Below, one piece after another: positions 7,746 through 22,243 of a stretch of DNA of 38,069 nt. Positions within the stretch are counted from its first letter, which is position 1; each line of letters begins with the position of its first letter. The notes below the pieces were generated by a model. That model was not told the DNA's origin. It saw only the letters and a program-made list of their open reading frames with translations, and ran no database searches. This DNA comes from Verrucomicrobiia bacterium (lineage in GTDB: Bacteria > Verrucomicrobiota > Verrucomicrobiia > Limisphaerales > JAOAIM01), in NCBI GenBank assembly GCA_026414705.1, contig JAOAIM010000009.1:1-38069 (forward strand). The letters are read 5' to 3'. The position numbers and the translations under genes were made by a program.

Positions 7746-8729
7746 TCAGACCCAGCCCTCCGCCCGATACCGCGCCAGCGTCTCGGCGATGCCCGCCCGC
7801 AACGTCGTTTGGCAAACCAGCCCCAACTCCTCGCGCAGCCGCGTCGCGTCGCACACCCAGCCCGGCGCCGACAGCTCGGCATACTTCCAACGGCTCAACA
7901 CGCTCGCCCGACCGCGCACACGCGAAACGGCCTCCCCCACGGCGCACACCGGCCAGAGCATCGCCACGGGCAGCGGCAGCCGCAGCGTCCAAACGTTCAT
8001 CTGCGAGGCGATTTCTCGCGCCAGCTCGCCGCTCGTCACCACTTCGGGCGCAGCGACAAAAAACGTTTTGCCCGCCGCCCCCGGGTGCGTGAGGCACGTC
8101 ACCGCCACTGCGGCCAAATCCCGCACAAACACCAGGCTCAACGGCTGGCGACCGCCGCCAAACTGCGGCAGCAGATGTGCCCGCACCGCGCGAAACAGGC
8201 GCAAAAACTCGCCATCCCGCGGACCATAGACACCCGGCGGACGCAGAATCACGAACGGCACGCCGCAACGCTCCCGCACCTCGTTTTCTGCGGCGAGCTT
8301 GCTCCGGCCGTAAACCGACACCGGTCGCGGCGGGTCGTTTTCGCGTGCGGGTGACTGCGGCGTGGCCGGGCCGTGCGCCGAGAGGCTGGAGATGTGCACG
8401 AGTCGTTGAATCTGCCCGCCGCGACGGTTGATCGCCTCGACCACGTTCCGCGTGCCGGTTTGATTGACGGCGAAAAAATCCTCGTCGCGCAGCGCCCGCA
8501 CCGCGCCCGCGCAATGGAGCACGTGCGAGACGCCTTCCAGGGCGGCGTCCAGGCTTGCGGGATCGCGGATGCTGCCCGGGCGTACCTCCACCTGGTTGAG
8601 CCGATGCTCGATGAACCGTCGCGGGCTTTCGGGCCGCAGCAGCACGGCGGTCGGCAACCGCTCCTCGCACAACCGGTCGAGAATGTGGCTGCCCACAAAA
8701 CCGCTGGCGCCCGTGAGGAGGATTTTCAT
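7746..8729 (-). CDS. cerR: NAD(P)-dependent epimerase/reductase, putative 3-ketoceramide reductase
   Basis: The 327-residue product is an extended short-chain dehydrogenase/reductase. It has a cofactor loop TGASGFVGS (residues 6-14), a Ser115-Ser116 segment, a catalytic Y140xxxK144 pair (YGRSK), then LRPPGVYGPRD and a C-terminal substrate domain. In Caulobacter a related epimerase-like protein, CerR, reduces the 3-keto group during ceramide synthesis. The present gene lies between a serine palmitoyltransferase gene (81 bp upstream) and the PAP2 gene (7 bp downstream), which supports the same role here. Without that context it would be called only NAD-dependent epimerase/dehydratase; a nucleotide-sugar or 3-beta-hydroxysteroid-type substrate cannot be excluded by sequence alone. 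Confidence 0.8.
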   Translation of the reverse strand: MKILLTGASGFVGSHILDRLCEERLPTAVLLRPESPRRFIEHRLNQVEVRPGSIRDPASLDAALEGVSHVLHCAGAVRALRDEDFFAVNQTGTRNVVEAINRRGGQIQRLVHISSLSAHGPATPQSPARENDPPRPVSVYGRSKLAAENEVRERCGVPFVILRPPGVYGPRDGEFLRLFRAVRAHLLPQFGGGRQPLSLVFVRDLAAVAVTCLTHPGAAGKTFFVAAPEVVTSGELAREIASQMNVWTLRLPLPVAMLWPVCAVGEAVSRVRGRASVLSRWKYAELSAPGWVCDATRLREELGLVCQTTLRAGIAETLARYRAEGWV

Positions 8730-8810
8730 TCGGCGACCCTGTGCGATCCGGCATCACCCTGACGCGGCGCCGTCGGGTGACGCGCGTGTGGCGACCGACA
8801 ACCCGGCGGC

Positions 8811-10184
8811 TCACGCGCTGCCGGAAATCAGCCCCAGTTCGCGGCCCACTTTCGCCAGTTTCTCCAGCGCAAAGTCAATTTGCGCGTCGGTGTGCGTCGC
8901 CATGAGGCTGATGCGGATGAGTTCGCGGCCGGGCGCGACGGCGGGTGGCACGACCGGGTTGACAAACACGCCCTCCTCTTCGAGCCGTTTGGTCATGCGG
9001 AACGCGGTGAGCAAATCGCCGCAATAGACCGGCAGCACCGGGGTTTCGGAGTCGCCCAGGTTGAAGCCCAGTGAGAGCAGGCCCTCCTTCATGCGGCGCG
9101 TGTTCTGCCAGAGTCGTTGGATGCGCTCCGGCTCGCTGATCATGATCTCCAGCGCGGCCAGCACGGCGGCGGCGTTCGCGGGACTCATGCTCGCGCTGAA
9201 AATCAGCGCGCGCGACTGGTGCTTCAGAAAATCAATCGTTGCCGCGTCTCCCGCAATGAATCCGCCCAGGCTCGCGAGCGACTTGCTGAAGGTGCCCATG
9301 ATCAGGTGCACCTGGTCGGTCAGCCCAAAGTGGCTGGGCGTGCCCGCGCCGTTTTCGCCCAGCACGCCGATCGCGTGCGCGTCGTCCACCATCACGGCCG
9401 CCCGATGCTTCTGCGCAATGCGGCACAGTTCGGGCAACTGCACAATGTCGCCCTCCATGCTGAAGACCCCGTCCACCACGATGAGCTTGCCCGCGTCCGG
9501 CTCCAAGGTGCTCAGTCGCCGTTCCAGCGCGGCCATGTCACGATGCGCGAACCGGATGAACTCGCCCGGGGCCAACATGCAGCCGTCCACGATGCTCGCG
9601 TGGTCGCTTTTGTCCGCGAGCACATAATCGCCGCGTCCCACCAGCGCGCTGATGACGCCGAGGTTGACCTGAAACCCGGTGCTGTAAAGCAGCACGGCCT
9701 CTTTCTTGACCAGCCGCGCCAGCGCCTGTTCCAGTTCGATGTGAATCTGGAGCGTGCCGTTGAGGAAGCGCGAGCCGGCACAGCCCGTGCCGTAGCGTTT
9801 CACCGCCGCGATCGCAGCCTCCTTGACCTTGGGATGATTCGTCAGGCCCAGGTAACTGTTCGAGCCGAGCATCAGCACCTTGCGCCCGTTGATGATCACC
9901 TCGGTGTCCTGCGCCGAGGAGATCATGCGAAAATACGGGTAAAGCCCGGCGGCGCGCGCCCGGGCCGGAGCGGTGAAGTCCCGCACCTTTTGGAAAATTG
10001 GCAAATCCGGCGGCAACGTGCGCTCGGCCAGTGCCGCTTCAAACCCGTCCACGGCCGCGTCGTAGTTGGCCGACGGGATGGGCCGGAGCGGACGGCGACG
10101 CGGCGTGGGTGGGGGCGCTTCCGCAGCGGGCTTGGACTCGTTGGGGGCGGAGTCGCGGCTCCGGGAAAACGAAAATCGTTTCAT
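8811..10184 (-). CDS. spt: Serine palmitoyltransferase (alpha-oxoamine synthase family)
   Basis: A PLP-dependent alpha-oxoamine synthase of 457 residues. Key features are [12 protein letters not shown] (about 107-118), [14 protein letters not shown] (131-144), DHAS with PLP-stacking His195, [20 protein letters not shown] with Asp267 and His270, and the Schiff-base lysine Lys301 in [16 protein letters not shown]. The phrases [13 protein letters not shown] and GTFSKS..S.GGFIAG fit the serine palmitoyltransferase side of the family better than KBL, BioF or HemA. It would condense serine with an acyl thioester to 3-ketosphinganine, the first sphingolipid step. The first 60 or so residues are a Ser/Pro/Arg-rich extension not normal for bacterial members. 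The frame stays open to 10388 with other possible starts (for instance ATG 10367); 10184 is preferred because the upstream part looks unconserved. No acyl carrier protein gene lies nearby. Confidence 0.88.
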
Positions 10185-10906: not shown

Positions 10907-12538
10907 TCAACCCTCGCCGTTTTGGAATGCGAGCCGAACATCCCGCTCATTCACAAACGCCAGCGCGCCGGTTGGGCAATGCAGCACGCATTCGGCGGCG
11001 ACTTTTTGCAGCCCGCGCTCGATCGCCTCGTTGAACGGCACGCCCACGCGCACGTCGAAGCCGCGCCCGATGAACGTCAGCCCCAGCGGCTCGCGCGCCT
11101 GCTCGGTCAGCTTCACGCAAATCCCGCACAAAATGCACTTGCCCGGCTCGAACAGCACCCCGCCCGGATGCTCGCGTTGCTCAAACGTCCGCCGCTCGGA
11201 GCGGAACCGATTCGCGTCCGCGCCATAGACCTGCGCCCAGTGCTGCAACAGGCATTCGCCGGAGGACCGGCAGTCGCAATGCAGACAGCGCGACGCCTCC
11301 AACGCGGCTTCCTGCGGCGTGTGGCCCAGGCAACGGTCGCAGGGCGTGACGCGGTGGGCCGCGTTGGCGTGGCGCAGGAATTCGCGCAACTCGCCCGGCT
11401 GCAACCGGCCCATCACGCTGGAAAACGGCTTCTCCGGCCGCCGCGGAGTGCGCCCATCCAGGAACGCGCTCACGGCCGCCGCGACGGCGTGACCCTCGGC
11501 CATCGCGCGCACGAGCTGGCGCACGGGCCGCACGGCACTGCCGGCGGCAAACACCTTCGGCAGGCGCGTCTGACCGCTGTTGGGGTCCACCTCGATTCCG
11601 CCCGCGCCAAACGGCACGCCGATGCGCGCCGCCTCTTCTGCCGAAAGTTCGCCCACCGCCAGCACCGCGTCGAACGCCCGCGTCAATCCCTCCAGCGTCA
11701 ACTCGCGGCCCAGTTCGACGCCGTTCTCAAAGCGCACGCCCAGCCGCGTCAGTTGTTCCAGTTCCGCGTCGAGCACGGGCCGGGGCAGTTCGGTTTCGGG
11801 CACCGCGCGCAGCGAGCCACCCGGTTGCGCGTGTCGGTCGGCGACGACAACCGCGTGCCCTTCGCGGGCGAGCCGATGCGCCGCCGCCAGGCCCGCCGGC
11901 CCCGCGCCCACGATGACCACCGATTTGCCACTGGGCGGCTTGCGCGGCGGGACCCGGGGCGAGCGCGGCGCACCTGTGGTCGCGTCAGCCCCCCGCAAGC
12001 CCAGCTCCCAATCCGCCACGAACCGTTCCATGTCGCGAATGGCGGCGGGATTGTCCCAGGCGGCGCGGCGGCAACCCTGTTCGCACGGGTGATGACACAG
12101 CCGTCCGAGCACCGCTGCCAGCGGCAACGCGCGCCGAACCTCGGTCGCCGCCTCCTCGAGCCGCCCGGCCTGGATTGCCCGCAGCATGGCCGGCACGTTC
12201 AACTCCAGCGGACACAACCGGTGACACGGCGAGAGGCAATCGCCCACGTGATCGCTGAAGAGCAGCTCGAGCGCGGTGCGGCGCGCCTCGTGCACTTCTG
12301 AGGTTTCGCTTTCCACGACCATGCCGGGCGTGACCTTCGTGCCGCACGAGGGCACGAGTCGTCCGTTGATTTTGACCAGGCACACCAGACACGTCGTCAG
12401 CGGCCCGCACTCTTCGAGGTAGCAGAGCGTGGGGATTTCGATGCCCGCGCGTCGCGCCGCTGCCAGCACGGTCTCGCCCTCGGCGACCTGGACCGCCCGC
12501 CCGTCAATGGTGATGGAAAACGTCACGCTCACGAGCAT
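10907..12538 (-). CDS. NuoG/GltD hybrid iron-sulfur flavoprotein lacking the NAD(P)H domain
   Basis: The 543-residue product has an N-terminal NuoG/HydA-type [2Fe-2S] ferredoxin domain (Cys39, 50, 53, 65), then a GltD/DPYD-type Fe-S helical domain (C101..C105..C109P, later CHHPCEQGC at 149-156, IRDMERFVADWE). An FAD Rossmann motif follows (VVIVGAGPAGLAAAHRLA, 207-224). The C-terminal part is ferredoxin-like, with CDRC, CLHCDC, KCILCGIC (468-474) and CVLHCPTGAL (517-526), again as in NuoG. In GltD proteins a second GxGxxG NADPH domain of some 130-150 residues sits between the two FAD-domain halves. Here FDAVLAVGE (289-297) runs almost directly to KVFAAGSAV (328-336), so that domain is absent. 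It is the last gene of the operon after the HydC-HydB fusion and probably exchanges electrons with it through Fe-S clusters. An upstream extension to 12946 is rejected: it is repeat-derived and overlaps the previous gene. Confidence 0.8.
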   Translation of the reverse strand: MLVSVTFSITIDGRAVQVAEGETVLAAARRAGIEIPTLCYLEECGPLTTCLVCLVKINGRLVPSCGTKVTPGMVVESETSEVHEARRTALELLFSDHVGDCLSPCHRLCPLELNVPAMLRAIQAGRLEEAATEVRRALPLAAVLGRLCHHPCEQGCRRAAWDNPAAIRDMERFVADWELGLRGADATTGAPRSPRVPPRKPPSGKSVVIVGAGPAGLAAAHRLAREGHAVVVADRHAQPGGSLRAVPETELPRPVLDAELEQLTRLGVRFENGVELGRELTLEGLTRAFDAVLAVGELSAEEAARIGVPFGAGGIEVDPNSGQTRLPKVFAAGSAVRPVRQLVRAMAEGHAVAAAVSAFLDGRTPRRPEKPFSSVMGRLQPGELREFLRHANAAHRVTPCDRCLGHTPQEAALEASRCLHCDCRSSGECLLQHWAQVYGADANRFRSERRTFEQREHPGGVLFEPGKCILCGICVKLTEQAREPLGLTFIGRGFDVRVGVPFNEAIERGLQKVAAECVLHCPTGALAFVNERDVRLAFQNGEG

Positions 12539-12722
12539 TGCTCCTGGAACAGGCGGAAGCGCGAAGCGGCCAACGCGCAACGCGCAACCAAACCGGATGG
12601 CAAATGGAGAACGGTGCAAATGCACGGGCGCGGCCTTCCACAACAACGGCCCTGGCAAGCCCCGGTTCGACGGGTTTGGCTCGTCGGCACCTCTGCGTCG
12701 CTGCGTTGAAAAAAGGTTTCCA
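12539..12722. other. Intra-operon gap with a short intergenic repeat
   Basis: This 184-bp gap lies between the HydC-HydB gene and the flavoprotein gene and holds no gene. Near its upstream end (12688-12716) is CTCTGCGTCGCTGCGTTGAA, which resembles a word-like interspersed repeat ('ctctgcgtctctgcgttgaaa') that I recall from many Verrucomicrobiota genomes. That recollection cannot be confirmed from one window. Confidence 0.45.
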
Positions 12723-15368
12723 TCATGCGACCTCCACGGCGTTGTGCGGGCAGACGCGGCGACAGGTATCGCAGCGGGTGCATTTGGCGTCGTCAATCGC
12801 GTGCCGCGCGTAGGGCGTGAGCGGGATGGCGTTGACCGGACAGTGCTGGGCGCAAAGCGTGCAGCCGGTGCAGGCGTCGGTGATCGTGTAGTGGATGAGC
12901 GCGGTGCATCGGCGCGCCGGGCAACGGCCCTGCACGTGCGCTTCATATTCGTCTCGGAAATACCGGAGCGTCGTCAGCACCGGGTTGGGCGCGGTTTTGC
13001 CCAGGCCGCACAGGCTGCCGGCGCTGACCTGGTGGGCGAGGCGCTCCAGCTCATCCAGGTGTGCGCGCGTTGCCCGGCCGGTGCAAAGCCGGTCGAGGAT
13101 TTCGAGCATGCGCTTTGTGCCGATGCGGCAGAAGGTGCATTTGCCGCAGGACTGGTTTTGAGTGAAGCGCAGGAAGTAGCGCGCGATGTCCACCATGCAC
13201 GTGCTGTCGTCGAGCACGACCAGCCCGCCGCTGCCCATGATCGCGCCGATGTCGCGCAGGCTCTCGAAATCCACCGGCGTGTCGGCCAGCCGCGCCGGAA
13301 CGCACCCGCCGCTGGGCCCGCCGATTTGCACCGCCTTGAATCGCCGCCCCTCGCCCACGCCGCCGCCGATGTCCTCGACCAGCTCGCGCAACGTCGTGCC
13401 CATCGGTACTTCCACCAGCCCGCCGCGCCGCCCCCGGCCCGCCAGTGCAAACACCTTCGTGCCCCGGCTGGTGGGCGTGCCCAGCGCCGCAAATCGCTCC
13501 GGCCCGTGCCGCACGATCCACGGCACCATCGCCAGCGTCTCGACGTTGTTGATGAGCGTCGGCCGGCCCCACAAACCCTGCTCGGCGGGAAACGGCGGTC
13601 GCAACCGCGGCATGCCGCGCTCGCCCTGCAAGGAGGCGATCAGCGCCGTCTCCTCGCCGCACACAAACGCGCCCGCGCCCTCAAAGAGCGTGAGTTTGAA
13701 CGGCGGCCCGACGCCGAGGAGTTTTTCGCCCAGCCAGCCACGCCGCTCCAGTTCGGCGATCGCCGCCCGCACGCGCCGGACCGCCAGCGGATACTCGCGC
13801 CGCACATAAAAAATTCCCTCGCGCGCCCCGACCGCCAGGGCTGCAATCGCCAGCCCTTCGATCACGCGAAACGGAAACGATTCCAGAACCATCCGGTCCA
13901 TGAACGCGCCCGGATCGCCCTCATCGCCGTTGCAAATGACGTATTTGATCGGGCCGGGCTGACGGGCAACGACGCGCCACTTTTGCGCCGTCGGAAAACC
14001 GGCACCGCCCCGCCCGCGCAACCCCGAACGCTCGATGAGCGCGATGATTTCTTCGGAGGTGAGCGGTGCAGGTTGCTCCCTCTCCCTCAGGGAGAGGGCT
14101 GGGGTGAGGGTGAGAGCTTCGCGCGGGTCGGCGGTTTGGGAGTCTTTGGACTGCATGACGTGTTCTCCCTCACCCTTTCCCTCTCCCGCTGGGAGAGGGG
14201 AAGCGGTTTGGACGCCCGCGGGTTTGTCGGAAGGCGTGGGGCTTTTGGCTACCGGCTCCAGGGCTTGGGTGGGGTTGGACGCGTCGGACTGGTCAGAGCG
14301 TTCGCCCTCACCCTGACCTTTTGCCTCGGCCGGCGCGGGCGTGAGCGTAACGCCCAGACACTTCGCCAGCGCCGCAAAGCCCTCGTGCGCGACGTATTCG
14401 TCGAGGTCGAGCGGATCAAGTTTGCCAAAGTGCTCCGTCGCGATGTGCACCTGACGGCCCAGAAACGCGCGCACGGACGGATCGCGTTTGCTCAGCGAAA
14501 ACCGCTGCACCGCGCGCTCCGGCTCGGGCGCGTCGAACAACAACGCGTCCAGCGCGCGCGTCCAGACCCGCCGCAGCCGCTCGCGCCACCGGCGCGGGCG
14601 CAAGTGTCGCTGCAGCAGCGCGCCCGCCTGTTCGGCCGTCACGCCCGCATAAAACGTCCCGGGCCGACCGGCTTCGGCCACCTCGACCAGCGGCGTGCGA
14701 TGGCACATGCCCACGCAACCGACGCGCTTGACGACGACGTTCGCGCCGCTGGCTGCGGCGACCTCGTTGAGCGCGTGGAACAGCCGGTCGCTGCCCTTGG
14801 CCATGCAGCAGGAGCCGAGGCCGACGTGGATTTCCATTGCACCGTCGCCCGTGCGGCGCGGGTGAAGCGTTTCGGTGCTTTGCGTTGCGGCCGCGCGCGC
14901 CTGCAGTTGCAGAAACTCGCGCAGCACCTCCGGCACACGTTCGGGCGTGTTGTAGCCGAAGGTTTTCTCCCCGATGCACACGGTGGGCGCGAGCGTGCAG
15001 GTGCCCACGCAGGCGACGCGCTCGATGGTGAATCGCCGTTCCGCGTCGGTGTCCGCGCCCTCCGGGATGTTCAAGTGCCGGCGCAGGGCGTCTTCGATCC
15101 GCTCGGCCCCGGCCACGTGACAGGCCGTGCCGTGGCAGACGCGGATGCGGTATTTGCCGGTCGGCGCGAACCGGAACATGTCGTAGAACGACGCCACGCC
15201 GATGAGCCGCGCCGGGGTGATGTCGGTCGTCTCGCACACGTGCCGGAGCGCCTCTTCGGGCAGGTAACCGTAGTGCGCCTGCAACTCCTGGAGAATCGGG
15301 ATGACGGCCTCGGGCTTGCGACCCAGCCGCGCGACGATCTGCTCGGCAATGCTCAGGTCAACGGTCAT
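12723..15368 (-). CDS. HydC-HydB (NuoE-NuoF) fusion, NADH-oxidising flavoprotein with two C-terminal [4Fe-4S] sites
   Basis: One 881-residue protein joins domains that are normally separate subunits. Residues 1-155 are NuoE/HydC, a thioredoxin-like [2Fe-2S] domain (Cys78, 83, 120, 124). Residues 178-260 form a second thioredoxin-like [2Fe-2S] domain (Cys187/188, 218, 222). From about 290 comes NuoF/HydB, with the FMN site GLRGRGGAGFPT (449-460), NGDEGDPGAFMDRM, the NADH-site region GAGAFVCGEETAL, and the [4Fe-4S] ligands SCGKCTFC plus a later CGLG. The C terminus adds a dicluster ferredoxin (CTGCTLCAQHCP and CTRCDTCRRVCP). This layout is that of the diaphorase part of electron-bifurcating hydrogenases and transhydrogenases. 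Residues about 342-435 are a low-complexity insert, largely repeat-encoded, between FAALAKCLG and LTSEEIIAL, which are contiguous in ordinary NuoF. ATG 15368 is chosen because NuoE homology begins there. Confidence 0.88.
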   Translation of the reverse strand: MTVDLSIAEQIVARLGRKPEAVIPILQELQAHYGYLPEEALRHVCETTDITPARLIGVASFYDMFRFAPTGKYRIRVCHGTACHVAGAERIEDALRRHLNIPEGADTDAERRFTIERVACVGTCTLAPTVCIGEKTFGYNTPERVPEVLREFLQLQARAAATQSTETLHPRRTGDGAMEIHVGLGSCCMAKGSDRLFHALNEVAAASGANVVVKRVGCVGMCHRTPLVEVAEAGRPGTFYAGVTAEQAGALLQRHLRPRRWRERLRRVWTRALDALLFDAPEPERAVQRFSLSKRDPSVRAFLGRQVHIATEHFGKLDPLDLDEYVAHEGFAALAKCLGVTLTPAPAEAKGQGEGERSDQSDASNPTQALEPVAKSPTPSDKPAGVQTASPLPAGEGKGEGEHVMQSKDSQTADPREALTLTPALSLREREQPAPLTSEEIIALIERSGLRGRGGAGFPTAQKWRVVARQPGPIKYVICNGDEGDPGAFMDRMVLESFPFRVIEGLAIAALAVGAREGIFYVRREYPLAVRRVRAAIAELERRGWLGEKLLGVGPPFKLTLFEGAGAFVCGEETALIASLQGERGMPRLRPPFPAEQGLWGRPTLINNVETLAMVPWIVRHGPERFAALGTPTSRGTKVFALAGRGRRGGLVEVPMGTTLRELVEDIGGGVGEGRRFKAVQIGGPSGGCVPARLADTPVDFESLRDIGAIMGSGGLVVLDDSTCMVDIARYFLRFTQNQSCGKCTFCRIGTKRMLEILDRLCTGRATRAHLDELERLAHQVSAGSLCGLGKTAPNPVLTTLRYFRDEYEAHVQGRCPARRCTALIHYTITDACTGCTLCAQHCPVNAIPLTPYARHAIDDAKCTRCDTCRRVCPHNAVEVA
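14078..14114 (+). repeat. BIME-like palindromic repeat, copy A (inside the HydC-HydB gene)
   Basis: A perfect 9-bp stem CCCTCTCCC / GGGAGAGGG with a 3-nt loop (14078-14098) is followed by a G-rich tail CTGGGGTGAGGGTGAG (14099-14114). It pairs with an inverted copy at 14165-14199 about 50 bp away. Both are in-frame within the coding sequence and encode the low-complexity linker. Confidence 0.85.
14165..14199 (-). repeat. BIME-like palindromic repeat, copy B (inside the HydC-HydB gene)
   Basis: Inverted relative to copy A: the tail CTCCCTCACCCTTT (14165-14178) precedes the stem CCCTCTCCC-GCT-GGGAGAGGG (14179-14199). On the coding strand it gives PLPAGEGKGEGE. A degenerate third tail lies near 14303-14322 (encoding AKGQGEGE). 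Confidence 0.85.
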
Positions 15369-15396: not shown

Positions 15397-17220
15397 TCAG
15401 TCGGATCGCGGTTGGCCCACGCACCAGAGGTTGGTCTGGCCGCGCAAAAACATTCGCCCGTCGGCGAACGCCGGACTGGCGAGGAACTCATCGGCCAGCC
15501 GGCTGCGCGCCAGTTCCTTGAAGGCGCGGGCGGCCTCGACCACAACCGCCTCGCCCTTCAACCCCGGCACGAAGAGCTTCCCGCCCACGATTGCCGGGGA
15601 CGCCTGCACTTCGATCTCCAGCGGCGCTTCCCAGAGCTTTTGCCCGTCGCGCGCCTCAAAACACGTCAGCAGCCCGCCGCTGGTCACGGTGAAGGCCAGT
15701 TCGCCGTTGCTCACCGGGCTGGTCACGTCCGGGGCGTTGTCCGGCGCGCGCCAAACGACGTGGCTGCGCGTGACATCGCCCGCGCCGTCGGGCCGCAACG
15801 CAATCAGTTCGGTGGATGGATTCACTGCGAGCACCAGACCCGCCGCGAACACGGGCGAGGGCGTTACTTCGCCCCCCAACAGGTCGGCGCGCCACAACTC
15901 GCGTCCGTCCTCCGGTGCGTGGCTCATCACCAGTGGCACGGCCAACGTGATGACCTGCGGGCGCCCGGCGGCCTCCACGACGATCGGCGTGGCCCAGGAA
16001 CTGTGCGTGGGCTTGCGTGCCTCCCAGAGCAACCGACCGCTGGCCGGGTCAAACGCCAGCAACTTCGAACCGCCCGGCGCGCCCTCGTCTTGATCGAGTT
16101 GCACGATGAGCCGGCCCGGCCACACAACGGGTGACGCGGCGTGGCCGTAGGCGTTTTTCGGCACGCCAAGGTTTTTGGCCCACACCGGCGCGCCGTCCAA
16201 CGTGAAGGCCGCCAGATCGCCGTTGGCAAACAGCGCGAACACGCGCCGCCCGTCGCACGCGACCGTGGGCGAGGCGAACCCGGTCATTTCGGGAATCTCC
16301 GGTTGAACGGCCGGGCTGCCGGGCACGTTTTCAACCGCGCGTCGCCAGAGCAACGCGCCACTGGTCGCATCGAAACAAAACACCTCGCGCCGCGCCGCGT
16401 CGCCGCCGGACAAAAACACGCGATTGCTCCACACCACGGGCGAACCGTGGCCCGGCGCCGGGACGGGCGTTTTCCAGAGCAGATTCGCGCCGGATGCTGC
16501 GTCCCAGGTCAAGGGCACGTTGGTAAACGCCGAAACGCCGCTGCCGTCCGGCCCGCGAAACCGCGGCCATTGCCAGCGAAATGTTTCCCACGGCAACGCA
16601 TCCGATGCGGTGGCCTCTGCGCCCGAGCCGGCGAGAAGCTTTTCGATTTCGGTGGCGGAGTGCGGTAGCGGCGAACGCGCCGTGAGCGCGAGCGTGGTCA
16701 GTCCGGCGAACACCACACCGCCCACCGCAGCGGCGGCGCGTCGGGCACGGGCGGCTTCACGTCGCGCGCGCAACTCTGCCATCGGGTCGGGCCGGGGCAT
16801 TGGCGGTGGCGTGCGAAGTTTTGCTGCCTGGCGCGCGGCGGCAACCAGCACCGCCAACCCGCCGATCAAGAGCCAACCGCCCGTGCGGTCGAGCACGAGT
16901 CGGCGGCGGTAGCGCTGGCGGAATTCCAGGTCGAGCCGTCGGATTTCCAGCTTGAGATTCTCGTCGTTGGGCGAGGCGCGCAGTTGCGCCTTGAGTTCGA
17001 GCAGGCGGGGCGATTGCCACGGGTCATGCTCCAGCGCGGTGAAGTGGAAGTAGAGCATCGTGCCGCTGACCAGCAGGCAGAAGGCGGCGGCAATGCACGC
17101 GGTCCAGAGCCAGGCCTTCACCAACGGGCGGGGCGATCCGCCGGATGATCGTGCCGGTTGGGACTTTTGCTCGGTTGGAGTCCCCGGTGCGGGCTGCGGC
17201 ATGGCGGTCAGCATCGTCAT
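15397..17220 (-). CDS. Membrane-anchored PQQ-like beta-propeller protein
   Basis: The 607-residue protein has three N-terminal hydrophobic segments (about 36-58, 114-131 and 163-181) separated by charged, helical linkers, then a beta-propeller from about residue 215. The propeller opens with WPRFRGPDGSG and shows repeated PQQ-like strands such as VFCFDATSGALLWRRAV, LLAFDPASGRLLWEARK and LTCFEARDGQKLWEAPL. These W-docking repeats are common in verrucomicrobial 'PQQ-like' proteins, most of which are not proven to bind PQQ, and no catalytic motif of alcohol dehydrogenases is visible. The start at 17220 overlaps the preceding stop in an ATGA, proving translational coupling to the NapH-like gene. 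The propeller is probably periplasmic and membrane-tethered, possibly as a docking or sensing part of the redox complex. Confidence 0.8.
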   Translation of the reverse strand: MTMLTAMPQPAPGTPTEQKSQPARSSGGSPRPLVKAWLWTACIAAAFCLLVSGTMLYFHFTALEHDPWQSPRLLELKAQLRASPNDENLKLEIRRLDLEFRQRYRRRLVLDRTGGWLLIGGLAVLVAAARQAAKLRTPPPMPRPDPMAELRARREAARARRAAAAVGGVVFAGLTTLALTARSPLPHSATEIEKLLAGSGAEATASDALPWETFRWQWPRFRGPDGSGVSAFTNVPLTWDAASGANLLWKTPVPAPGHGSPVVWSNRVFLSGGDAARREVFCFDATSGALLWRRAVENVPGSPAVQPEIPEMTGFASPTVACDGRRVFALFANGDLAAFTLDGAPVWAKNLGVPKNAYGHAASPVVWPGRLIVQLDQDEGAPGGSKLLAFDPASGRLLWEARKPTHSSWATPIVVEAAGRPQVITLAVPLVMSHAPEDGRELWRADLLGGEVTPSPVFAAGLVLAVNPSTELIALRPDGAGDVTRSHVVWRAPDNAPDVTSPVSNGELAFTVTSGGLLTCFEARDGQKLWEAPLEIEVQASPAIVGGKLFVPGLKGEAVVVEAARAFKELARSRLADEFLASPAFADGRMFLRGQTNLWCVGQPRSD

Positions 17221-18668
17221 GCGTTCACCGCTTGGGGTTCGGACGCGGGCCGGGGCGCTTCGGCTGCCGGCATCAGCCCCAGCCGCACCAATTCCTGCGG
17301 GCAGGAACGGAAGCAGCGGGCGCAGGCGAAACACGCGCCGCGGTCGGGTTCAAAGTCGGCGCGGCGCACGTGCACCGAAAGGCTCACGAGCTTGACGCCG
17401 AGCACCAGGCCGACCCAGCCGCCGAAAAGCGCGCATGCGAGCACAAACCGCCCGCGCATTTCCGCCGCCGCTTGCAACAGCCCTTTCGGATCGCGCTCGG
17501 CGCGCTGGAGCGAGAGCGCTTCAGGCGTCATCAGGCCGTGGTCCACGGGCGATTGTTGCTGTTGGAGAAAGCGCTCGGCGAGGGCGACCGTGGGATCGAG
17601 CTTCGCGACGGCCGGGCCGAGGCGATGGCCGATCAGCGCGCCGGCGGCGACCAGCACCGGCAGCAGGCCAAGCAGCGCGGCCAGTCGCCGTCGGTCACCC
17701 CGAACAAACGGCGGCGATGCGACGCCGGGCGAAGGCTCGCGCATCGCGCCGAACGGGCAGGCGTTTTCGCACAGGCGACATTGCGTGCAGGAGTCGGGCG
17801 TCACGCGCACGCGCCACCTGGAGACCAGCGCGGCGAGCCGCAGCAGCGCGCCATACGGACAGGCGAACCGGCAGTAGGGCCGTCCCACCCACAGGCCCAG
17901 CAGCAGCGTCAGCACGCCCAACGCGACCATGAGCGAAGGCCCGTTGAGCCGAAAAATCGGCACAATCGGATCGTAACGGCAGACCGGAAAGCCCGAGCCG
18001 GTCGCGGCGAAACTCAGGCCGAATCCCAGAAACACAAACGGCAACACGCCCAGCGCGTGTTCGAGCCACGCGGGGACTTTGACGGGCTTGACGAGCACCA
18101 GGTCCTGCAACGCGCCGTGCGGGCAGACCGCCGCGCAAAACGCCCGGCCCGCAAACAACGCCACGATCAGCGGCAACGCGAAAAACGCCACGACCGTCAG
18201 CGGCACGGCGTATTCGGGATGGAACAGGGCATAGGCCACGTTTTGCGGCGCGCCGATGGCGCAGACGCAGCCCTTTTTCCAGAAGCCAAACCACGCGACC
18301 GAGAAGATCGAGAGCCAGAACAGGCCGCGGCGGGAACGTTTTTTGTAGATGAGCCAGAGCGCCAGCGCCAGCGCGCCCGCGAGCACGGCCACATCCAGGT
18401 AATGCACCCAGAGCGCGCGGGGTGGCGGGGTGGTGGTGACGGGCAGTTGATGACCGGTCTCGGTGAAGTCCGGAGGGGGGAAGCGTTGTTCCGCCGGCGA
18501 TTCGCCCCCAAGGGCAAACAAGCACAACGTGCTGACCACAAAGGCGGGAACAGGAGCAAAGGAGAAAAGGGGAAAAGGAGCGCAAGCAAGAGCGCGCCTT
18601 CGCGCCTTTTCTCCTTTTCCCCTTTTCCCCTTTTCAAGCGAGCGCCGCATGGGATTCAGTGATGTCAT
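17217..18668 (-). CDS. NapH/NosR-like polytopic [4Fe-4S] membrane protein
   Basis: The 483-residue integral membrane protein carries CVCAIG (134-139), two membrane-loop CX3CP motifs (GRAFCAAVCPHGALQ at 174-188 and GRPYCRFACPYGALL at 262-276), a ferredoxin-type CTQCRLCENACP (294-305) and a C-terminal CFACARCFRSCP (446-457). This is the plan of NapH, NosR and related quinol-linked proteins, which pass electrons between quinone and periplasmic Fe-S partners. No FMN-binding NosR domain is present. Its start overlaps the NapG-like gene stop (ATGA at 18665-18668), and its stop overlaps the next start (17217-17220). Residues 12-39 come from a GA/CT-rich inverted repeat (18558-18633) that has become part of the signal or first hydrophobic segment. 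Direction of electron flow is unknown. Confidence 0.85.
   Translation of the reverse strand: MTSLNPMRRSLEKGKRGKGEKARRRALACAPFPLFSFAPVPAFVVSTLCLFALGGESPAEQRFPPPDFTETGHQLPVTTTPPPRALWVHYLDVAVLAGALALALWLIYKKRSRRGLFWLSIFSVAWFGFWKKGCVCAIGAPQNVAYALFHPEYAVPLTVVAFFALPLIVALFAGRAFCAAVCPHGALQDLVLVKPVKVPAWLEHALGVLPFVFLGFGLSFAATGSGFPVCRYDPIVPIFRLNGPSLMVALGVLTLLLGLWVGRPYCRFACPYGALLRLAALVSRWRVRVTPDSCTQCRLCENACPFGAMREPSPGVASPPFVRGDRRRLAALLGLLPVLVAAGALIGHRLGPAVAKLDPTVALAERFLQQQQSPVDHGLMTPEALSLQRAERDPKGLLQAAAEMRGRFVLACALFGGWVGLVLGVKLVSLSVHVRRADFEPDRGACFACARCFRSCPQELVRLGLMPAAEAPRPASEPQAVNA
18558..18633. repeat. Inverted repeat inside the NapH-like gene
   Basis: The arms at 18558-18580 and 18611-18633 are reverse complements over 23 bp with one mismatch; the perfect core is 18564-18580 against 18611-18627. 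They are purine-rich (A/G) on one side and pyrimidine-rich on the other, with a GC-rich centre (18581-18610). The element is translated in frame as residues of about 12-36 (KGKRGKGEK on one arm, PFPLFSF on the other). Confidence 0.85.
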
Positions 18669-19237
18669 TGCGCGTGGCTGGTTTTCAGCAGGTAAGGCCG
18701 GCTGGCGGGGACGCGCCGGAAGGCATCGCCCGGACACGTCCGCGCAATCGCGCATTCGTTGCAGTTGACGCAGCGGTCGTGGCGGATTTGGAGGAAGAGC
18801 GAACCGTTGCCGAAGCGGGAGCAGCCCTCGACGCATTTGGCGCAGCCGATGCACAGTTCCTCGTCAATCGTGTATTCGTAGTAGGGGTCTTCGATGAACG
18901 TGCGCTGGATGGCGCCGGTGGGGCAAAGCTGGTTTTCGGCGGCGGTGGTCAGTGCGTTGGGCTCCGGCTCGAAGTAGCCCGTGCACAGATTGCAATAGCC
19001 GCAGAGGGCGAAGGCATGGACGCATTTGACCGCCGACTGTTCGAGCACGCACTCGGTGGCGCAGTTGCCGCAATGCAGGCACTTGGCCGGATCAATCTGC
19101 CAGACCCAGCCCTCGCTGCGGCTGCGTCCGGCCAGCGCGCCGCCCAGCGCGCCCAGCGCCGTCATCCCCAGCAGGCGCGCGCCGTGGCGCAGGAACGCGC
19201 GGCGGCTGGTCGGTTCGGATGGGGTCGAGGCGTTCAT
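18665..19237 (-). CDS. NapG-like Tat-exported ferredoxin with four [4Fe-4S] sites
   Basis: The 190-residue product has a twin-arginine signal (SRRAFLRHG, residues 11-19) and a hydrophobic stretch to about residue 36. Sixteen or more cysteines then fall in ferredoxin patterns: CLHCGNCATEC (53-63), C72 with CGYCNLC (79-85) and CPTG (105), CIGCAKCVEGC (129-139), and CVNCNECAIARTCP (156-169). This matches NapG-type periplasmic ferredoxins, which pair with NapH to take electrons from the quinone pool. It is directly followed by the NapH-like gene with a 4-nt ATGA overlap. No periplasmic nitrate reductase or other known terminal reductase is in the window, so the acceptor or donor is unknown. Confidence 0.88.
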   Translation of the reverse strand: MNASTPSEPTSRRAFLRHGARLLGMTALGALGGALAGRSRSEGWVWQIDPAKCLHCGNCATECVLEQSAVKCVHAFALCGYCNLCTGYFEPEPNALTTAAENQLCPTGAIQRTFIEDPYYEYTIDEELCIGCAKCVEGCSRFGNGSLFLQIRHDRCVNCNECAIARTCPGDAFRRVPASRPYLLKTSHAQ

Positions 19238-19352: not shown

Positions 19353-20366
19353 TCATGCCCTTCTTTGCATCACGCGCACCTCGGCGGTGACGCGGTCGAG
19401 AATGAAAATCCGGCCCTGCGCGTCGGCCACGGCGTCCAGTCCGCCGCGGCTGCAATCGGACGCGCCGCAGGCTTTCGCGTTGGCCGCAAAGCTCTCGACG
19501 CCCGCCACGACGGATTCGAACTCGCCGGTGGCGCTGTAAACCTTCACGCGCGGGAGGCCTTTTTCGCAGGTCACGTGGCGACCGTCGGGCAACAGCGCCA
19601 GGCTGATGGGATTGCAGCAGCCGGAAAACCCGGTGATGTCCATCGAGGCGCGGCCCCATGCGCCCTCGAAGTCGCCCTCCGGCGTGTAAAGTTCGACGCG
19701 GTGCCGACCCGGATTGGTCACGCGCAACAGGCCGTCGGGTGCGACTTTGACGTCGAAAAACGGGCTGGGCACGATGAAGCCCGGAATGCCGCGCTCCCGG
19801 TTTTTCTCGCCGAGCCGCGCGAGCAATTTGCCGGAGCGATCGTAGCGCAGCAGGACGCGCTGGCCGGCGTCGGCCACGAACACGTCATCGGCGCGCACCG
19901 CCAGCGCGGTGAGCCAGGACTTGCGACCGGGCGCATCCCAGCTCGCGCGGCGCCGCCCGTTGGCATCGAACACCTCGATGTGGTCGCGCAATCCGACGAA
20001 GATCGCGCCGTCTTCAGCCACGGCGACGCATTCCGGCGGCGCGCTCAGGGCAATCTCCAGTCCGCGCTCGCCTGCCGGGCTGACGGCGGTGACGTAGTGG
20101 CCTCCGCAGACAAACAACGTGCCGTCGGGCGCCAGACCCAGCCGTCGTGCCGGTGATTGCGGCGCGGGCCAGCGGGCAACCTCGTGGTGAGTTACCAGAC
20201 GCGGATCGGTTTTTTCGAGACGCGACACGTCGTAGGCGAACGGGTTTCGGGCGCGCGTGGGGGCAGCCGAGGCGCGCTGCGCGGCGATTGCGCTCAAGAG
20301 CGCGAGCGCACCGGCGCTTTGCCCGAGGAACTCGCGTCGCGTGGAGAGACGAAACTCGCGTTTCAT
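19353..20366 (-). CDS. Tat-exported NHL-type beta-propeller with cysteine cluster
   Basis: The 337-residue product starts MKREFRLSTRREFLGQSAG, a twin-arginine signal, and matures near residue 36. The rest consists of NHL/SMP-30-like six-blade repeats (RRLGLAPDGTLFVCGG, LTALAVRADDVFVADAGQ, DVKVAPDGLLRVTNPG, ISLALLPDGRHVTCE, LDAVADAQGRIFILD). Five cysteines group in the C-terminal half (250, 251, 267, 300, 305), an unusual number for an NHL domain and compatible with a bound metal or Fe-S cluster, which would also explain Tat export. The start overlaps the preceding mini-protein stop (ATGA, 20363-20366). The role is unknown; in context it is a periplasmic partner of the NapG/NapH-like module. 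Confidence 0.8.
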   Translation of the reverse strand: MKREFRLSTRREFLGQSAGALALLSAIAAQRASAAPTRARNPFAYDVSRLEKTDPRLVTHHEVARWPAPQSPARRLGLAPDGTLFVCGGHYVTAVSPAGERGLEIALSAPPECVAVAEDGAIFVGLRDHIEVFDANGRRRASWDAPGRKSWLTALAVRADDVFVADAGQRVLLRYDRSGKLLARLGEKNRERGIPGFIVPSPFFDVKVAPDGLLRVTNPGRHRVELYTPEGDFEGAWGRASMDITGFSGCCNPISLALLPDGRHVTCEKGLPRVKVYSATGEFESVVAGVESFAANAKACGASDCSRGGLDAVADAQGRIFILDRVTAEVRVMQRRA

Positions 20367-20842: not shown

Positions 20843-22243
20843 TCAGCGGGCTGAAACGTCCAGGCAGACCAGGCGCGTGAGGTCGCGCGCCAGCAGGCGG
20901 TTGCCGGCCAGAGCCATCGGCGCCCAGGACTCGCGTCCGTGGAGCACCCGGGTTTGAGCAAGGTGTTGCCAGCGCGCAGGCGTTGCGGCGATGAGGCTCA
21001 AGCGTCCGGTATCGTTGAGCGCAAACATCACGTCGCCGGCCATCAGGAACGAACCCAGGCCGAAGGTTTCGGCAGGGCCGCTGGCCCAGACGACCTTGCC
21101 GTCGGTTGTCAGGCAGACGAAGCGCCCGTCGGCGCGCACGCCGTAGAGGTGCTCGTCGCGGAAGATGGGGGTGTGCTGCGTGGCGCCGAAAACGGAGGGC
21201 GGCAGTCGGAACAGGGTTTTGAGGGTGAACCGTCCGTTGGCGGGTTCGAGTTGCGCCATCAAACTGCCCGCGTTGTAGCCGCCGGTGAAAAAGATTCGCC
21301 CGCCCGGCAGCGGCAGCGGGGAGGGCACGGTGGCGATGGCGATTTTCCAGTCGCTGGTCTCGAAGAGCAACGCGCCGTCGCGGGCGTCCACGCCCACCAC
21401 GCCGCCGCTGGCGCAGTAGAGGTAAAGGCGGCGTCCGGCGAATTCCATCGGCATGATGGAGGAATGGGTCATTTTCCAACCGCGCGGGTTCGGGGTGCGC
21501 CAGAGCACCTTGCCGGTGGCCGCGTCGAGCGCGATCAGCAGCGCATCGCGTCCGCCCGGGGCCAGGATGAGTTTGCCGTCCTCGATCAATGGGCATTGGC
21601 CGGTATACCAATCCGGCACGGCGGCGCCGAAATCGTGCACGAGGCTGCGGCTCCACTGGAGGGCGCCGCTGATGGCGTCGAGGCAGAGCACGTTGCACTT
21701 GGAATCCAGGCCCACGACCCACCGGTCGGTGAGCGCCGGCACGGTGCGGGTCATGCCGTGGTTGCGCTTGATGAAGTGGGGGTAACTGAAGCGCCACAGT
21801 TCGCGCCCGTCGGCCAGCGAGAGGCAACGCAGGGCGCTGCGGCGTGCGGTGGCGTCGTAGTCCCAGAGATAAACGCGCCCGCGGTGGATGGCGGGCCCGG
21901 CGTAGCCTTCGCCCAGGTCGAGTGACCAGAGGGGACGCGGCGGGGCGCCCTGCCAGTCGCGCGAGAGGCTGTCCGGAGGCGGGGCGATGCCGTCGCGGTT
22001 TGGCCCGCGAAACTGTGGCCATGCGCCGGGCAACTCCTCGGGCCGGGCATCGCTGGCGATGAGTTGACCTGAAGGGATGGGGTTGGCGGCGTGTTCGCCG
22101 GTGGGCGCGGCATCGCGGCCCGGCACACGCATCACCAGACCCGCGTCGGTGCGCGAACTCCACCACCAACCCAGCGCGATGGCTGCCAGCACCGCGGCCA
22201 GTGGCGGCAGGTAGGGCAGGTATTTGTTCCAGTCCCCCCGCAT
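20843..22243 (-). CDS. PQQ-like beta-propeller protein with N-terminal membrane anchor
   Basis: The 466-residue product has one N-terminal hydrophobic segment (YLPPLAAVLAAIALGWWW, about 11-28) that would serve as signal-anchor. A propeller begins near residue 75 with WPQFRGPNRDGI. Repeats such as LRCLSLADGRELWRFS, VLCLDAISGALQWSRS, LIALDAATGKVLWRTP and VVGVDARDGALLFETS are PQQ_2-like blades. It is the first gene of the co-oriented redox run and is divergent from the FAD/Fe-S dehydrogenase (141-bp gap). A 234-bp gap with an A/T-rich patch near 20710-20760 separates it from the Tat mini-protein gene, so the downstream genes could also have their own promoter. Catalysis or PQQ binding is not shown. 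Confidence 0.8.
   Translation of the reverse strand: MRGDWNKYLPYLPPLAAVLAAIALGWWWSSRTDAGLVMRVPGRDAAPTGEHAANPIPSGQLIASDARPEELPGAWPQFRGPNRDGIAPPPDSLSRDWQGAPPRPLWSLDLGEGYAGPAIHRGRVYLWDYDATARRSALRCLSLADGRELWRFSYPHFIKRNHGMTRTVPALTDRWVVGLDSKCNVLCLDAISGALQWSRSLVHDFGAAVPDWYTGQCPLIEDGKLILAPGGRDALLIALDAATGKVLWRTPNPRGWKMTHSSIMPMEFAGRRLYLYCASGGVVGVDARDGALLFETSDWKIAIATVPSPLPLPGGRIFFTGGYNAGSLMAQLEPANGRFTLKTLFRLPPSVFGATQHTPIFRDEHLYGVRADGRFVCLTTDGKVVWASGPAETFGLGSFLMAGDVMFALNDTGRLSLIAATPARWQHLAQTRVLHGRESWAPMALAGNRLLARDLTRLVCLDVSAR

Follow-up and report, generated by a model that had tools for sequence, protein, structure and literature searches.

The Bfu family, as outlined in the main text of a review (PMC9304861), joins a conserved BfuBC core for NADH and ferredoxin to a variable BfuA subunit that serves an exchangeable third substrate; the same text predicts membrane-bound Nuo-Bfu and Mbh-Bfu variants and leaves 18 of 57 clades, about a third, without a function. 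The described systems closest to the locus reported here are StnABC of Sporomusa ovata (PDB 8oh5, PMC10482914) and the NfnABC enzymes (A subunits in 9bov and 9n5u). StnC and the NfnABC A subunits share one order of parts, namely a [2Fe-2S] domain, a GltD Fe-S pair, an FAD domain and a NuoG-like Fe-S part. Two residues of StnC have been singled out: R239, an arginine beside the flavin whose R239A variant shows about 0.03 U/mg, and K170, an unusual lysine near the FAD-adjacent cluster that is strictly conserved in StnC (PMC10482914). A GltD module resembling that of the NfnABC A subunit also sits on a membrane complex in anammox bacteria, where Rieske/cytochrome b complexes with NAD(P) reductase subunits (Kustd1483, Kuste4570) likewise have a lysine beside the cluster nearest FAD (PMC12954380).

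Our window, the whole stretch of 38,069 nucleotides analysed (contig JAOAIM010000009.1 of a Verrucomicrobiia bacterium), carries a gene set, here lettered Z and A to F, whose features are collected in Table 1. The open reading frame of gene F is genuine: it starts with an ATG at 12538, immediately preceded by an AGGAG Shine-Dalgarno sequence, and ends with a stop codon at 10907-10909. Its product follows the part order of StnC and the NfnABC A subunits, which are its best solved relatives, but differs from them in lacking an NAD(P)H domain, an FdhF-like C-terminal domain, C114 and a counterpart of R239. The best family model for F is NCBIfam PRK12814 (putative NADPH-dependent glutamate synthase small subunit, 657 aa), yet the match of 350 bits falls short of its cut-off of 916 bits, and the model describes a protein that bears the NADPH domain.

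Table 1. Features of the operon, in positions of the window
Feature	Positions	Strand	Support or remark
Gene F, BfuA/StnC-type subunit with NAD(P)H domain deleted, 543 aa	10907..12538	-	Pfam; solved-structure homologues 9bov_A, 8oh5_C, 9n5u_A; confident AF2 model
F residues 7-79, [2Fe-2S] ferredoxin domain (C39, C50, C53, C65)	12302..12520	-	Pfam Fer2_4 7.4e-18
F residues 103-178, GltD/DPD-type 4Fe-4S domain (ligands C101, C105, C109, C148, C152, C156; E171 at the StnC K170 position)	12005..12232	-	Pfam Fer4_20 8.2e-18; Cys invariant
F residues 205-297, FAD domain, first half (GxGxxG 211-216, GG 240-241)	11648..11926	-
F residues 298-327, 30-residue linker in place of the NAD(P)H Rossmann domain	11558..11647	-	conserved length; AF2 model
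F residues 328-362, FAD domain, second half (FAAGSAV replacing FAGGDAV)	11453..11557	-	alignment of homologues
F residues 411-530, NuoG-like tail, two cluster sites (C418/421/423/429; C468/471/474/521)	10949..11308	-	Cys (nearly) invariant; PDB alignments
Gene E, NuoE-NuoF fusion (BfuC + BfuB core)	12723..15368	-	Pfam 2Fe-2S_thioredx, Complex1_51K, NADH_4Fe-4S, Fer4; predicted start ATG at 15368
Gene D, membrane-anchored PQQ_2-type beta-propeller, about 3 TM helices then propeller	15397..17220	-
Gene C, NapH-like multi-TM Fe-S protein (two CxxxCP, CxC, two ferredoxin motifs)	17217..18668	-	Pfam Fer4_5
Gene B, Tat-exported polyferredoxin, NapG-like layout, about 4 [4Fe-4S]	18665..19237	-
Gene A, Tat-type or membrane-anchored NHL beta-propeller, conserved GCCNP motif	19353..20366	-	predicted start
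Gene Z, PQQ_2-type beta-propeller, usually the operon's first gene	20843..22243	-	Pfam PQQ_2 2.9e-25

An earlier note, made from the letters of this DNA, had claimed that the FAD domain of F has lost its NAD(P)H-binding half, and the sequence, 74 homologues and a structural model all bear this out. FDAVLAVGE occupies residues 289-297 and KVFAAGSAV residues 328-336, the latter exactly where the earlier note had placed it; its GxGxxG was off by one (211-216, not 210-215), and the gap between the two FAD-domain pieces, rightly called short, counts 30 residues and not about 35. Nucleotide-binding Pfam models match F over their first ~35 residues only, and the span from residue 297 to residue 328 measures 32 residues in F versus 178-183 in intact homologues. 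A 30-residue linker stands for a Rossmann domain of ~146 residues. The span is exactly 32 residues in 66 of 75 aligned truncated homologues and 28-40 in the rest. With the same cut in 74 aligned homologues from several phyla, the alignment indicates that the domain loss is neither a chance effect nor a local deletion. An assembly or frameshift artefact was ruled out, the cut being shared by dozens of independent genomes.

The AlphaFold2 model of F built on 75 sequences reached a pLDDT of 93.7 and a pTM of 0.90 (a run on 21 sequences had given a poor C-terminus, with a pLDDT of 68). Foldseek aligned its whole chain to NfnABC 9bov_A (TM 0.86), StnC 8oh5_C (0.85) and 9n5u/9n5v_A (0.85), with an rmsd of 3.1 A to 9n5v, and the alignments of F to these subunits fall into separate pieces that skip the NADPH domain of the target. 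The description of the FAD unit as flanked by NuoG-like Fe-S parts is also upheld. All 543 residues are accounted for in the model, which holds no second Rossmann domain, either at the usual site or elsewhere; the finding that the earlier note had named as fatal to its claim, a complete rearranged NAD(P)H domain elsewhere in the chain, is thus ruled out by the model and Foldseek. We consider it extremely improbable that NADPH is bound by such a rearranged domain or in trans by another protein, since known domains minus the NADPH domain explain the entire chain and the operon yielded no additional conserved gene for nucleotide binding. F is not a flavoprotein with two dinucleotide domains (FAD and NADPH) of the GltD/NfnB kind, nor does its GltD module contain the NADP(H)-binding Rossmann domain of the Nfn-Bfu/StnABC NADPH transhydrogenases. 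A stand-alone NADPH transhydrogenase role, which the earlier note had argued against, is untenable for a protein from which the NAD(P)H domain is gone. F functions as a Bfu A subunit would and falls outside the NADPH transhydrogenase subfamily.

The partner expected of such a subunit is encoded by gene E, which is homologous to StnB/NfnB plus a NuoE and whose closest solved homologues are the B chains of NfnABC and StnABC; unlike in those enzymes, BfuC and BfuB are fused here. The protein comprises a [2Fe-2S] part, an FMN/NADH domain, a 4Fe-4S site, a CPxxxC site and a C-terminal 2x[4Fe-4S] part. It has the BfuB core (the NuoF FMN/NADH domain, B1 and the clusters missing from non-bifurcating NuoF) and, in its NuoE part, the BfuC [2Fe-2S] subunit, while F supplies a BfuA with [2Fe-2S] and NuoG-like 4Fe-4S clusters. 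The cysteines for B1, CPxxxC, the C-terminal 2x[4Fe-4S] part and the BfuC [2Fe-2S] cluster (four Cys) are invariant in 81 homologues. In the N-terminal [2Fe-2S] cluster of BfuB, C247 and C277 are invariant and C281, a probable ligand, is present in 67 of 81; bifurcation by E is not certain, because Ser or Ala replaces C281 in the other 14. Of note, a palindromic dispersed repeat of ~120 bp, with 36-nt arms 81% complementary, lies inside gene E at 14077-14199. It is read in frame within the linker between the [2Fe-2S] and NuoF domains (product '..SPLPAGEGKGEGE..LTLTPALSLREREQ..'), has about 100 matches on both strands in a search of the genome, and is missing from most E homologues. A 184-bp single-copy gap (12539-12722) separates E from F in the window; many relatives have the two genes overlapping or directly adjoining.

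A search of 146 relatives' genomes found truncated F in about 22, and most of the best 80 public-genome loci have it too. It occurs in Verrucomicrobiota, Planctomycetota, Poribacteria, KSB1/Caldithrix-like bacteria and Armatimonadota/Zipacnadia, and on a few contigs whose bin labels, taken as given, read Actinomycetes or Deltaproteobacteria. Two copies look like pseudogenes or assembly errors, one split over two frames inside the FAD domain (L053 of genome G024, about 8400-9979) and one with a single internal TAG (L014 of G015). Another homologue (L052:7690-9486) has a longer in-frame repeat-like insertion between the Fe-S and FAD domains.

Across the 75 aligned truncated sequences (32 verrucomicrobial, 43 others) all Fe-S cysteines of F are invariant or nearly so, and C39, C50, C53 and C65 of the [2Fe-2S] domain are invariant. 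In the window's clade, mean identity to relatives is 62% and 57% for the two FAD halves versus 74% and 71% for the Fe-S parts. Judged by these alignments, the Fe-S wiring of F is strongly constrained and the flavin-ring side is relaxed, above all in the window's clade. In the window's clade the RYGIPxYR motif has gone from the first FAD half. The position of StnC R239, E250 in the window, is Arg in 7 of the 75 and lost in 68. The 'GD' aspartate, which we take to bind the ribityl chain of the flavin in this flavoprotein superfamily, is absent from 32/32 verrucomicrobial sequences; among the 43 others the position holds D in 19 and N in 13. Flavin binding by F is uncertain, because Arg239 is lost and the window's clade has no 'GD' aspartate, and the FAD may be a remnant or wholly missing.

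One reading would make the FAD domain of the window's clade a cofactor-free scaffold, F being a pure Fe-S wire and flavin residing only in E (as FMN). The losses of R239, RYGIP and the aspartate and the faster divergence of both FAD halves speak for it, as does homologue L054:5886-7583, which tolerates a 43-aa repeat-like insertion ('..AGQASSLPVREASCRPN..WKPALH..') exactly in the NADPH-deletion linker. We nevertheless hold it to be somewhat unlikely, since GxGxxG, Gly296 of the ATG motif and Gly333 are invariant in 75/75, beyond the needs of a mere scaffold, and at the GD position D or N survives in 32 of the 43 non-verrucomicrobial members. The invariant dinucleotide-fold glycines suggest that F still binds something, so that its FAD is possibly not inert. 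Set against the Arg239 and 'GD' counts, both the presence of FAD and its electron exchange with Fe-S centres, which the earlier note had proposed, stay hypothetical.

At the position of StnC K170 (171 in F), the verrucomicrobial sequences have E in 32/32, as does NfnB, and the others K in 43/43; three more divergent members outside the alignment have T, M or S. In the 75 aligned members this non-Cys position beside the cluster nearest FAD is therefore K or E without exception, and that regularity, the invariant dinucleotide fold and the retention of much of the pocket in planctomycete members are what favour a bound FAD working as a redox site. Its partner, docking where the NADPH domain used to be, would be a quinone, a disulphide or a cluster of the NapH-like subunit; the likeness invoked is to flavin thioredoxin reductases of the ferredoxin-dependent type, which use ferredoxin (PMC12796991). 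Such a site is unlikely in our view, as the window's clade has not conserved the residues that face the flavin, and the linker showed no new catalytic residue that is conserved.

The conserved membrane operon, on which the earlier note is silent, is the stronger clue to the electron partner of F. Upstream sequence of 7.5 kb or more is available for 45 public loci; 42 of them have genes A-E upstream of F on the same strand, D is there in 45/45, and Z in most loci with enough flank. The A-B-C-D-E-F order extends over Verrucomicrobiota, Planctomycetota, Poribacteria, Armatimonadota/Zipacnadia and others, and in the window C/B and D/C overlap at ATGA-type junctions. The search for further conserved flanking genes gave only a partial FtsX/ABC-transporter association, mainly outside Verrucomicrobia, most other matches being antisense shadow ORFs. 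An FtsX/MacB-like ABC transporter (ATPase and permease) adjoins the operon in several non-verrucomicrobial phyla (loci L102, L118, L119, L122, L123, L126, L127, L129, L100, L108, L130 and L131). E and F by themselves resemble soluble NfnABC/StnABC, and StnC needs no membrane partner; E and F could then form a soluble enzyme with the membrane and propeller genes as mere neighbours. We regard this as very unlikely in the face of the synteny over several phyla, and F, having no NADPH site, would be left without a third substrate.

Genes C and B together recall the NapGH quinol dehydrogenase, in which a multi-TM Fe-S protein with CxxxCP motifs is paired with a Tat-exported polyferredoxin. The cysteines of C are 100% conserved, as are 16-17 cysteines of B, whose RR motif is found in 96-100%. 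The likeness is one of layout: C scores 40 bits against TIGR02163 napH (cut-off 213), B of the window has no match to the NapG model and one orthologue reaches 23 bits (cut-off 269), no nitrate reductase is present, and a Bfu core is linked instead. Both C and B are thus far below the NCBIfam NapH and NapG cut-offs. Co-location of the operon genes does not prove that their products form one complex. Gene A has a near-invariant GCCNP motif and an EKG..R tract across phyla, which could bind metal or form a redox disulphide. The membrane partner also sets the operon apart from Nuo-Bfu and Mbh-Bfu, being NapH/NapG-like with beta-propellers, and from the anammox complexes, in which FAD and the NAD(P) site are modelled intact and the membrane part is Rieske/cytochrome b (PMC12954380). 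NapH has no match in the main text of the Bfu review (PMC9304861), and a search of the literature within reach found no description of the operon; the gene set is apparently undescribed so far. As far as the main text of that review allows the comparison, it may be among its 18 function-less clades.

In five verrucomicrobial genomes of one lineage, the F encoded by this same operon retains the NADPH domain, RYGIPxFR and GD. When the E tree is rooted with solved Bfu B chains, the operon forms one clade (100/100), and the intact-F operons group with the window-type Verrucomicrobia (100/99), inside otherwise truncated lineages (AU p = 0.25 for exact nesting of the intact-bearing E within the verrucomicrobial group). 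On the F tree truncated F forms one clade (100/99) with intact F outside, which disfavours independent repeated deletions of the NADPH domain. Vertical descent of the intact F inside Verrucomicrobia was rejected (AU p = 0.0001), while the E of those operons is verrucomicrobial. The simplest reading of the two trees is apparently a single ancestral deletion followed, in one lineage, by replacement of F with an NADPH-competent F, with the caveat that long-branch effects may act on such relaxed sequences. The intact-F operon suggests that NADPH is an optional input to the same machine.

Taken together, the gene set looks as if it wires cytosolic NADH and ferredoxin to Fe-S proteins in and outside the membrane. 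On balance we favour a Bfu enzyme whose NADPH branch has probably been replaced by a membrane/periplasmic Fe-S partner. Only tentatively, and with slightly more doubt than conviction, do we propose a new Bfu class, a trans-envelope con-/bifurcating machine that would link NADH and ferredoxin to a NapH/NapG-like periplasmic Fe-S chain and beta-propellers, its NADPH port lost ancestrally and regained through a gene swap in a single lineage of Verrucomicrobia. The following scheme is inferred as regards the assembly of the complex, the passage of electrons through C and B, the direction they take and the flavin content. F would be the Fe-S adaptor ('A') subunit of a Bfu-family NADH/ferredoxin enzyme and E its FMN-bearing core. 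The GltD-like module of F would formerly have carried electrons between NADPH and the core, as in StnABC/NfnABC, and a single deletion of its NADPH half, in the ancestor of the operon family, would have turned it into an Fe-S relay. E would bind NAD(H) and ferredoxin, and the cluster chain of F would join the FMN of E to the end of the GltD Fe-S pair, which, NADPH being gone, would meet the cytosolic ferredoxin motifs of C. C would exchange electrons, either way, with B outside, the two acting as third redox partner, so that the complex would move electrons between NADH and ferredoxin in the cytosol and an Fe-S/beta-propeller system on the envelope side. The FAD fold of F would be mainly structural; it may hold FAD, but without nicotinamide hydride transfer. 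Since 2-oxoacid:ferredoxin oxidoreductases, other NuoF homologues and heme-copper oxidases are all encoded in the host genome, a supply of both NADH and ferredoxin is plausible. Outward flow, from NADH and reduced ferredoxin to the envelope, is the more probable direction, because confurcation by Bfu is established for related enzymes and no low-potential dehydrogenase is recognised on the envelope side.

The operon, seen in several phyla, is a strong candidate partner for Bfu clades that have none assigned, and its occurrence with and without the NADPH port amounts to a natural experiment. If our reading is true, environmental planctomycetes and verrucomicrobia would have a way of powering redox reactions on the envelope side with NADH and ferredoxin from the cytosol, and a flavoprotein module would have outlived the loss of its nucleotide substrate.
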